Assembly: GCA_020833005.1 (NCBI GenBank)
Contig: JAJHRD010000012.1
Span: 1 to 37,997 of the forward strand
Direction: 5' to 3'
Length of the DNA stretch: 37,997 nucleotides
From: Candidatus Methanomethylicota archaeon
GTDB taxonomy: Archaea > Thermoproteota > Methanomethylicia > Culexarchaeales > Culexarchaeaceae
A model generated the notes under the pieces. It did no database searches. It was not told where the DNA came from and saw only the letters and a list, made by a program, of their open reading frames with translations. Positions 3,001 through 6,370 of the stretch are shown here, piece after piece (the stretch's first letter is position 1; each line of letters starts with the position of its first letter). A program made the translations under genes and the position numbers.

Positions 3001-3399
3001 TTGGTGAAAGTTTTGGTTGAAGAGTTGGCGGAGCTAATCGTCGAACTACCCACAGAGGATGAGAGGAGGAAGGCTGATATGCTTAGAATGCTACATGAAA
3101 ACAAAATTGTATATAGAATTGAGGGGTCATACCTAATCGTTGAAGGATTTGGATTGGAAATGGTTTTTGAAGATGATGATAGGGAATTCTTCATAAAATA
3201 TGAAGTTAAATTGGATAGGGGGAGGATTATAAAGTGGGTTTATGCGAAAATGGATGAACCAAACGTTTACTATAGGATTAAGGCGATACATTGCCCATCG
3301 AGTAGTGGGTATATTAAGGCTTTGAAGAGGAGGGGGATACCCTCCAATTGTATAAGGATGGCTTCAGAGGTTTTGAGGGATAGTGAAATTAGGGCTTAA
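3001..3399 (+). CDS. Unknown 132-residue soluble protein
   Basis: The N terminus is strongly acidic and helical (VEELAELIVELPTEDERRK), followed by alternating beta-like stretches and a basic C terminus with a Cys at CPSSSGY and one at SNCIR. There is no signal peptide or membrane segment. Starts TTG 3001 and GTG 3004 are both compatible with the TATA element at 2972-2986; GTG 3004 gives the same protein minus one residue. The 3' end overlaps the 3' end of the HerA-like gene by 11 bases in convergent orientation. Family not recognised. Confidence 0.6.
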   Translation: MVKVLVEELAELIVELPTEDERRKADMLRMLHENKIVYRIEGSYLIVEGFGLEMVFEDDDREFFIKYEVKLDRGRIIKWVYAKMDEPNVYYRIKAIHCPSSSGYIKALKRRGIPSNCIRMASEVLRDSEIRA

Positions 3400-6370
3400 G
3401 GCAAAGTTTACATCCAGTCTTATATCTGAATAGACGTTTAACTGTAATTATACATGATTCACAAACCCTTCTACCACAATTTGGGCATACCTTAACATGG
3501 TTAGTGCAAACCTCTCTACCACACGATGGACATTTATATACATGCTTATCACATATAATCCTACCACAAATACTGCAAACATGCTTCTCCTCATCAGTAC
3601 AGAATTCTGCACCACATATACTGCACTTCCAAACATGATCTTTACAAACAACCCTACCGCAAACACTACATTTGTGGATGCAGTCTCTACATAATGGTTT
3701 ACCACAAATTTCACAGTGAACTATGCTTTCACCACAAACTTCCCTCCCACAATCACCACATTTGGAGAGATGCTCAAGGTAGTGGATTTCACAATACGAT
3801 TTACTGCAATCATCACATACATGTATATGCTCACTGCAATATGCAACTTCAGAAACGCATTTCACACAATGCTTAACACAATCAGAACAAAGCTTCTTCC
3901 CACATATGGAGCATGTATATGATTTCTCATTAACGCAGAAAATTCTTCCACAAACATCACATTTAAATGAATGTTCAGGACATATTGTGGCCTCGCAAGC
4001 ACTACACTTCAATGAATGCCCACTGCACAATGGTGATAAACATATATTGCAAAATTCAAGTGAATTTAGGTTGGTTATTTGAGAGCCGCATACATCACAT
4101 TTCCCATAAACCCCAACACTATTATACCCATTCCAATGTAAACTCAAATTCCTCTCTAAATCCTTAAGGGAAATCTTAACAGTTCCATCAAATATGGGAA
4201 CCCATATGAGCCTAACATACTCCACATCCACATCCTTCCCACCCAAATTTATGACTACAGTTTTAAATTCACCCAAATCTTCAAATTCACTCTTCAACCT
4301 CCTCAACTCATCATTCATCTCCCTCTTAAGATCCTCAACAACCTTCTCCCTATACTCCAATTCAGAGTTAGATTCAGAAACCATCTTATTCAACTTTGAA
4401 AGCTTATCCTCCAAACTCTGAATCTTTGATGAAATGGAAATATACTCCCTTGAAGATGGATCAAGACCCCTCAACTTACTCTTCAAATCATTAATTGTGG
4501 AGATAAGCCTCTTCGCAGATTGAACCTTAACCTTAATGTCATCCCTAAGCGACTTTATTATGGCGTTATGTTTGGATATCTTAGCCTCATACTTCTCCAC
4601 AACCTTCCTACACTTGGAATCGAAAATCTCTTTACCAGCCTCCCTAAGCCTACTCTTAAACTCCTCCAAATCTTCATTACACTTAGAGTAAACTTTGAAT
4701 TTTGTGGAGTAATGTAGCTTGTAAGATAATTTTAATGATAGAAACTTCTTAAAATCCTTTACAATCTTCTCATACGAATTTAAACTCGATAAATCGATGT
4801 CCGGATTACGATAATTGATCTTATCAAAATTTGATGGCGATACAGATAATTCACTTTCATCGAAGGATTCAACGTCATAAGCCCTACTGGAATTGTAATC
4901 CAATTCCCCAGAAACATTTGATAATGGTATGAAAGCCCTATACTCATCGCTAAACTCCACATTGGGTTTAGAACGCTTAACATTAACAATGGCCTTAATA
5001 TCCAAAGCTGGATAATAGTTCAAAATAACACCATTAAAATCGAATTTAAATGGAAATCTACTGTACAGATTTGATGATACGAACTTCAAATCAAACTTAA
5101 CTGGTAGATGATATTGATTTATGAGTGGTGAAACCTTCGGTTTAGCTACAACCTCAACGGCTTTTGGAATTGCACCAAGCTTCATTAACCCCCTCCACTT
5201 AACCTCAGCATTCCTCAAAGAATCCTCCGAAATATAGTCGAGGGGGTTGAAGCCTGCTCCACCATGAATAGTCTCCCTACACCTAACCCTAACAATGTAT
5301 GGCACTTTATCCACAGCTTCACCAGTAACTATGCACTCACCAATTCCAAGCCAAACTATGCTATCCTCCCAACCCCTACCAAGACCTCCACTCTCCACAG
5401 CTATGGATATATCGTTGGGGTCTGAGAGTCTATGTATAATCCAAGTTCCACTTAAACTTCGAACTGTGGTGTCGAGGAGTTGAGGTCTCTGAGATATTAC
5501 TATGAGATTTGCACCAAACTTCCTCCCCTCCTGCGAGAACCTCCTCAAAACTATTTGGGATTCAGACTTCTCCCTACCAACAAACCTATGGGCTTCATCC
5601 AAAACCAAGTAGAATGGTGGAATCCTCCTAGCTATAGCTGCATCCAGAAGTTTATTAACCACCGATGCCACTATGGACACTTGATCATCTGAATCCAGCC
5701 CCCTCAAATTGATTATAACACACTTACCAGTGAGCACTAGATCCTCAGCGGAAACCTCACCTAAATATGATATATCGATATTTGCAGCCGCATTAAACTT
5801 CTTATCACCGAACTCTATTATCCTATCCACATAGCTAACTGGGTTAACACCGAATTCCATGCATCCAGATTTGGCTGCAACCTTTAAACTGGAGTATTCC
5901 CCATGAACATCAATTATTATTATTGGGATGTCCTTCTTCAAAAGCTCCTCAATCAAAACGCCAGCAGTATAGGATTTCCCGGAGCCAGGCTTACCCACAA
6001 CGAAAATCCTATTCAAACGATCCACTGGAATATAAACTTTAACATTATAATTCCTCAACATACCAAGATATACGGATTTGGAGTAATCTGCCGTTAAACC
6101 AAGAGTTACACGTATATTATCTTCAGAAGCCGCGTAAACCTCTAAGCCAACCTTAAGCGGAGTATCTGGAGGTCTACCAAGACATGTACATGAAGCATAG
6201 AGGGTTTCACCCTCACGCCTAAGACTCTTAACGAAGAAGACATGCCAACGATCATCATGGTAAACCTCCACAAAATCATTATTCCTAACAGTCCCAATAC
6301 ATTTAAATTCAAATTCAGATGTGGATGGTGAACCAACAACTATGCCAATAGGTTTACGCTCAACCAACAA
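3389..6370 (-). CDS. HerA-type ATPase fused to a coiled coil and a 15-module zinc-knuckle array
   Basis: 993 residues. Residues 1-95 form a beta-rich HAS-barrel-like domain. Residues 110-360 are the HerA/FtsK-type ATPase: Walker A GKPGSGKS (126-133), DVHGEYS (154-160), Walker B YLVLDEAH (254-261) and a sensor-like ISQRPQLLD (292-300). Residues 380-560 have no recognised motif. Residues 565-700 are a charged heptad-rich coiled coil. Residues 758-990 contain fifteen CxxC pairs, mostly 15 residues apart, with the recurring pattern CxxCGRxxCxxH. HerA ATPases are hexameric DNA translocases, usually paired with the nuclease NurA, and no nurA is visible here. Start is TTG 6370 (TTG 6367 also possible), with a TATA-like tract near 6404. 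DNA translocation is inferred; the zinc array could bind DNA, RNA or protein. Confidence 0.85.
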   Translation of the reverse strand: MLVERKPIGIVVGSPSTSEFEFKCIGTVRNNDFVEVYHDDRWHVFFVKSLRREGETLYASCTCLGRPPDTPLKVGLEVYAASEDNIRVTLGLTADYSKSVYLGMLRNYNVKVYIPVDRLNRIFVVGKPGSGKSYTAGVLIEELLKKDIPIIIIDVHGEYSSLKVAAKSGCMEFGVNPVSYVDRIIEFGDKKFNAAANIDISYLGEVSAEDLVLTGKCVIINLRGLDSDDQVSIVASVVNKLLDAAIARRIPPFYLVLDEAHRFVGREKSESQIVLRRFSQEGRKFGANLIVISQRPQLLDTTVRSLSGTWIIHRLSDPNDISIAVESGGLGRGWEDSIVWLGIGECIVTGEAVDKVPYIVRVRCRETIHGGAGFNPLDYISEDSLRNAEVKWRGLMKLGAIPKAVEVVAKPKVSPLINQYHLPVKFDLKFVSSNLYSRFPFKFDFNGVILNYYPALDIKAIVNVKRSKPNVEFSDEYRAFIPLSNVSGELDYNSSRAYDVESFDESELSVSPSNFDKINYRNPDIDLSSLNSYEKIVKDFKKFLSLKLSYKLHYSTKFKVYSKCNEDLEEFKSRLREAGKEIFDSKCRKVVEKYEAKISKHNAIIKSLRDDIKVKVQSAKRLISTINDLKSKLRGLDPSSREYISISSKIQSLEDKLSKLNKMVSESNSELEYREKVVEDLKREMNDELRRLKSEFEDLGEFKTVVINLGGKDVDVEYVRLIWVPIFDGTVKISLKDLERNLSLHWNGYNSVGVYGKCDVCGSQITNLNSLEFCNICLSPLCSGHSLKCSACEATICPEHSFKCDVCGRIFCVNEKSYTCSICGKKLCSDCVKHCVKCVSEVAYCSEHIHVCDDCSKSYCEIHYLEHLSKCGDCGREVCGESIVHCEICGKPLCRDCIHKCSVCGRVVCKDHVWKCSICGAEFCTDEEKHVCSICGRIICDKHVYKCPSCGREVCTNHVKVCPNCGRRVCESCIITVKRLFRYKTGCKLCLKP

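Follow-up and report, generated by a model that had tools for sequence, protein, structure and literature searches.

A HerA-type ATPase of Culexarchaeia carrying a coiled-coil hairpin and a predicted ladder of interlocked zinc sites

The closest described relatives of the protein reported here are the canonical HerA translocases, which combine a HAS barrel with a RecA core, possess a helix bundle (in D. radiodurans HerA it forms the putative entrance for DNA; PMC9960219), and are encoded in linkage with nurA, mre11 or rad50. HerA motors also serve in anti-phage systems (Sir2-HerA, DUF4297-HerA and others), where an effector gene lies adjacent; none is recognised beside the gene studied here. 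The protein shares with canonical HerA the HAS barrel and a RecA core with the same motifs, including DxHGEY after Walker A, but it has some 600 extra residues comprising a split β-domain, a coiled coil and a zinc ladder. Because most of the helix bundle is missing, the gene is unlinked to nurA, and the match to the NCBIfam HerA models, NF040937 included, falls far below the cut-off (82 bits against 800), we conclude that the protein is not canonical HerA but belongs to the FtsK-HerA kind and bears a module that has not been described.

The gene lies in a stretch of 37,997 nucleotides (the window) from a Candidatus Methanomethylicota archaeon, a heat-loving member of the Culexarchaeia whose closest named genome is that of Candidatus Culexarchaeum nevadense (88% identity); the host class is read from this name as the Methanomethylicia of GTDB. 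It is a minus-strand open reading frame of 993 codons with a TTG start and no internal stops, whereas the plus strand over the same interval is closed by stops. The gene and its parts are as follows.

3389..6370, minus strand: whole gene, 993 residues, TTG start (single open frame; full-length orthologues).
6080..6370, minus strand: HAS barrel, residues 1-97 (β-strands in the model; aligns with HerA structures across the N-terminal half).
5246..6079, minus strand: HerA-type RecA core, residues 98-375 (Pfam DUF87/HerA central domain, PF01935, E 6e-17; invariant residues).
4673..5143, minus strand: split β-domain, part 1, residues 410-566 (strands and a helix in the model; its own HMM matches the type B proteins described below).
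4277..4672, minus strand: antiparallel coiled-coil hairpin, residues 567-698 (model helices 568-633 and 641-697).
4100..4276, minus strand: split β-domain, part 2, residues 699-757 (model strands within 702-747; invariant columns).
3392..4099, minus strand: zinc ladder, residues 758-993 (ligand positions, unit count, internal repeat; pLDDT 89.6 when modelled alone).

The AlphaFold2 model, a monomer built on 31 orthologues, has a mean pLDDT of 85, and the invariant residues in the second part of the β-domain are W723, P725, N747, G753 and G756 in the orthologue alignment. A preliminary description had read the interval as a HerA ATPase and a coiled coil followed, within a single chain, by an array of zinc-binding pairs. 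This holds: the frame is uninterrupted and its orthologues are full-length with matching ladder spacing, while Pfam, the PDB fold match and the modelled hairpin account for the constituent parts. Orthologues down to 37% identity remain open over their full length, with unchanged ladder spacing and nearly every ladder cysteine invariant or nearly so, and the array is therefore neither a chance occurrence nor a frameshift fusion. A chimera in which the array belongs to a separate gene is likewise excluded by open, full-length orthologues in more than 25 genomes.

The best PDB fold match of the model is S. solfataricus HerA (4d2i, E 3e-25), which also represents the top PDB match by sequence; the T. 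kodakarensis HerA-NurA complex (9x1m) is among the best fold matches too. The core contains Walker A (GKPGSGKS, 126-133), Walker B (DEAH, 258-261) and the further motifs QEGRKFGA (280-287) and QRPQLLD (294-300). Across 31 orthologues there is little or no variation in Walker A, Walker B and the QRP region; the protein is very probably an active HerA-type motor. Where HerA carries a helix bundle of about 114 residues, the studied protein has about 46, mostly loop (PDB alignment, DSSP), leaving a gap of about 70 residues relative to 4d2i. In an ATPase tree obtained by a quick method from a small sample, the family groups with canonical HerA (SH-aLRT 87), apart from the type B and type C proteins; support for the two groupings spans 87-99.

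NurA, which had been reported as missing, is indeed absent beside the gene, and no linkage to nurA, mre11 or rad50 was found in 21 neighbourhoods; the genome nevertheless encodes NurA twice, each copy near another HerA. Membership of a HerA-NurA repair operon is thus ruled out by the neighbourhoods, the NurA-linked HerA genes being different ones. At one of these loci (G000:C14) HerA is accompanied by NurA and a Rad50-like gene. The other (G000:C43, L143:903-10852) is unlike it: three genes share one direction, those for HerA, for a protein of 1463 residues with weak coiled-coil matches, and for NurA; farther upstream lies a TGT-domain gene, and the locus possibly serves defence.

The array at the C-terminus consists of 15 CxxC pairs that alternate with 13 CxxH, CxxC or CxxE pairs (one with S), and these 28 pairs correspond to 14 four-ligand sites. 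The earlier count, fifteen CxxC pairs within 233 residues, is correct if only the leading pairs are taken, C758 to C990; when every CxxC is counted there are 18, three of the 13 interleaved pairs being CxxC as well. The steps between them, earlier described as mostly of 15 residues, are mostly 15-16 and range over 15-19, the last being 25. In every array counted of the studied family (type A), and in every full type C array, a lone CxxC caps the N-terminus whatever the length, and the C-terminus too bears one or more such caps, the C-terminal number being one in all counted arrays except L031. Indeed, L031 and L032 (genus g20) have about four fewer ladder units and still keep both end caps. 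Lone caps at both ends are expected if each pair is completed by the following unit, and not if every 15-residue unit forms a knuckle of its own. Fifteen independent zinc knuckles, as first proposed, are therefore disfavoured, and the pattern fits an interlocked ladder of up to 14 sites in which, we infer, one zinc is held jointly by a CxxC and the CxxH that comes after the next CxxC, in a cross-brace resembling those of FYVE and RING fingers. In some rungs the fourth ligand is replaced by E, S, A, D or K, and the true number of zincs per chain may therefore be 10-14.

The local resemblance to FYVE and other cross-brace fingers (PF01363; 1vfy, 1dvp) extends to the spacing CxxCG..FC as well as to the predicted pairing, but those fingers hold only two zincs. 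FYVE-like local matches also appear in the Pfam search. By fold, the full ladder has no match in the PDB below E 0.001 (best E 0.07), and its best local matches, none of them significant, are to RBR, FYVE, PHD and LIM structures. When the ladder is shifted against itself by 112 residues, 14 cysteines coincide, and this shift gives one of the two best non-cysteine scores among shifts with at least 10 cysteine matches; the internal repeat thus indicates that duplication of a half of seven units probably contributed to the origin of the ladder. The ladder's net charge stays low, between -5 and +12, which counts against a strongly basic DNA-binding array and favours a mainly rigid docking or sensing arm over a classical DNA-binding finger array.

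Neither the family nor the ladder is described in Pfam, NCBIfam, PADLOC or the open literature that we searched, although an earlier mention may exist; these three databases hold no model for the ladder, and no solved structure covers it. The preliminary description had known of no system with this domain order, and our searches of these sources agree.

Of 40 genomes of the host class, 29 carry the gene, as do 18 of the 21 good ones, at one locus each (the copies in G008 and G019 are split across contig ends). The profile search too failed to find it in G013, G032 and G033, which are among the good ones, so that it is not universally essential. Five genomes of a second class possess it with the ladder conserved. 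In the gene tree the families f1, f6, f9 and f16 are each monophyletic, as is the host order, and on this evidence inheritance is vertical, following the species tree. Across 21 neighbourhoods, in which genes were identified by reading rather than by profile, the flanking genes vary by family and read as core genes, among them a homocitrate-synthase-like gene, a nucleoside phosphorylase, Alba, UPP synthase, a tRNA methyltransferase and the Lhr helicase; within the window, the neighbours are ordinary by Pfam. The Lhr helicase adjoins the gene in one family and lies a few genes off in Culexarchaeales, a link that is suggestive only, and no partner gene is constant across families. A search of 2.9 million viral contigs gave no relative, and phages gave only one partial match, at 15%, to a terminase. 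A viral or plasmid origin was rejected, since the viral contigs yielded no relative and the phages and plasmids none of full length.

A search of 398 genomes of the phylum, made with a profile built on the C-terminal half, revealed parts of the module on other archaeal proteins and showed that β-domain, coiled coil and ladder have been shuffled among them. Type B proteins (L096-L100, L106, L108-L110) are DUF87 ATPases of about 800 residues that resemble the studied protein in the split β-domain and the coiled coil but lack the ladder; the HMM of β-domain part 1 matches five of them with domain E-values of 1e-12 to 1e-15 and others more weakly. Type C proteins (L101, L102, L103, L105, L111, L113) are HerA-like ATPases of about 900 residues that repeat the order of ATPase, coiled coil and capped zinc ladder seen in the studied protein. 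They differ in belonging to another ATPase branch (the DPKGD type), in showing no HAS barrel, in a large insertion, in a ladder of only about 4-7 sites (degenerate in L101) and in their neighbours. In type D (L104, L107, L112) the ladder is again shared, with E-values of 1e-14 to 1e-23, but a restriction-endonuclease domain, Mrr_cat, replaces the motor; in L104 this domain is recognised only by its resemblance to L107. Similarity arising from the coiled coil alone was excluded, separate HMMs of the β-domain (type B) and of the ladder (types C and D) each giving matches. A large secreted, apparently membrane-anchored coiled-coil protein (L118:11523-14399) is encoded directly upstream of a type C ATPase, and such a gene is found upstream of type C in three genomes (L118, L119 and L136).

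Types B and C form one group in the ATPase tree while the studied family falls with canonical HerA, and the same tail is thus found on two motor branches. The statement that known HerA proteins lack such arrays is accordingly not supported, as the second archaeal HerA-like branch has shorter ladders (L102, L103, L105, L111 and L113, with the degenerate one in L101). The co-occurrence of the array with HerA ATPases, which the preliminary description had proposed to examine, is seen on both branches, and the array extends to Mrr nucleases.

A recurrent trio occurs on haloarchaeal plasmids, in which a gene for a coiled coil and ladder stands between an SNF2 gene and a restriction-endonuclease gene. 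It is found on a Halocatena salina plasmid (L138:3595-8123; SNF2 DrmD-like by PADLOC, a likeness tested for Halocatena alone, and Mrr_cat by Pfam), in Haloferax lucentense (L137:3602-10070; Mrr_cat by Pfam) and in Halorhabdus tiamatea (L140:1768-7804; restriction endonuclease), while Halorientalis has only the pair of ladder gene and SNF2 gene. This arrangement looks like an unannotated defence operon. In Haloferax, L137:5383-9120 is an open frame of 1245 residues with several tens of CxxC/CxxH rungs, over which the annotation places only short hypothetical proteins on the opposite strand. Ladders thus range from about 4 to several tens of rungs, and their carriers and partners include two HerA branches, Mrr nucleases and SNF2 proteins. 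It is tempting to speculate that the coiled coil and capped ladder form a general archaeal zinc-stapled rod, fitted to unrelated motors and nucleases and captured here by a HerA-derived core translocase of chromosome maintenance, an idea that we put at somewhat short of an even chance.

For the studied gene itself, we give about even credence to a chromosomal, vertically inherited housekeeping role as a HerA-type dsDNA translocase whose coiled coil and ladder would act as docking or sensing arms. The single copy, the presence in 18 of the 21 good genomes, the vertical tree, the core-gene neighbours and the lack of viral relatives all argue for housekeeping, and we lean towards such a role rather than one in defence. 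Against it stand the related ladders that lie near SNF2 and Mrr genes on haloarchaeal plasmids, and the ladder-Mrr nuclease fusions seen elsewhere; for the module as a whole, these associations point to defence. The main rival is therefore a standing defence translocase, in which the ring would thread foreign DNA while the coiled coil and ladder detect invaders or bring in a nuclease from a remote gene. The PADLOC HerA models do match the ATPase, and capture-type defence often uses HerA or FtsK motors (PMC12839542). However, no nuclease, methylase, other defence gene or effector is recognised adjacent in the 21 neighbourhoods, the gene is single-copy and vertically inherited, and its ladder rungs are strictly conserved, unlike fast-evolving sensors. 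We consider this explanation rather unlikely. The suggestion of the preliminary description that a defence function is possible thus draws nothing from the gene's own setting, although the plasmid relatives do look defence-like, and chromosome handling or repair, its other proposals, appear to fit the distribution better.

Weak similarity of the ATPase to CedD and to conjugative ATPases raises the further prospect of a DNA-export or cell-envelope ATPase (CedB/TraD-like) with arms that dock on membrane proteins. A DUF1614 gene lies divergently upstream of the studied gene, and the secreted coiled-coil proteins encoded upstream of type C relatives would agree with such a role. Yet no transmembrane segment was noted in the studied chain, its ATPase groups with canonical HerA and not with types B and C, and no pilus or transfer genes were recognised in the 21 neighbourhoods, so that we regard export as improbable. 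It is very unlikely that the ladder, joined to a translocase, works as a RING-like ligase for ubiquitin or a small modifier: the resemblances to RBR, FYVE and PHD folds that would favour it are the non-significant ones given above, and no E1- or E2-like gene was noticed nearby.

Under the housekeeping reading, six chains would form a ring that pumps dsDNA with ATP, as expected from the HerA core. The HAS barrels would line one mouth of the pore, and the helix bundle that HerA has at the other mouth is largely missing. Each chain would continue into the β-domain with a coiled-coil arm of about 10 nm, and then into a rod in which up to 14 zinc sites interlock, and which would be mainly a rigid arm for docking partner proteins or sensing structures. 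The task of the whole may be to move or remodel chromosomal DNA in repair, replication or segregation, independently of NurA.

Taken together, our findings delineate a protein family, as yet without a name, that is encoded by most of the sampled members of a single archaeal class, together with a zinc-rod module for which there is neither a solved structure nor a model in Pfam, NCBIfam or PADLOC. The family offers a clear test case, with one gene, one chain and about 14 zincs predicted. Should the rod serve DNA motors and nucleases by docking their partners, it would link the upkeep of archaeal genomes with several uncharacterised defence-like operons. Since it recurs in other archaea on proteins that cut or move DNA, the rod seems to be a so far undescribed component of archaeal DNA machines.
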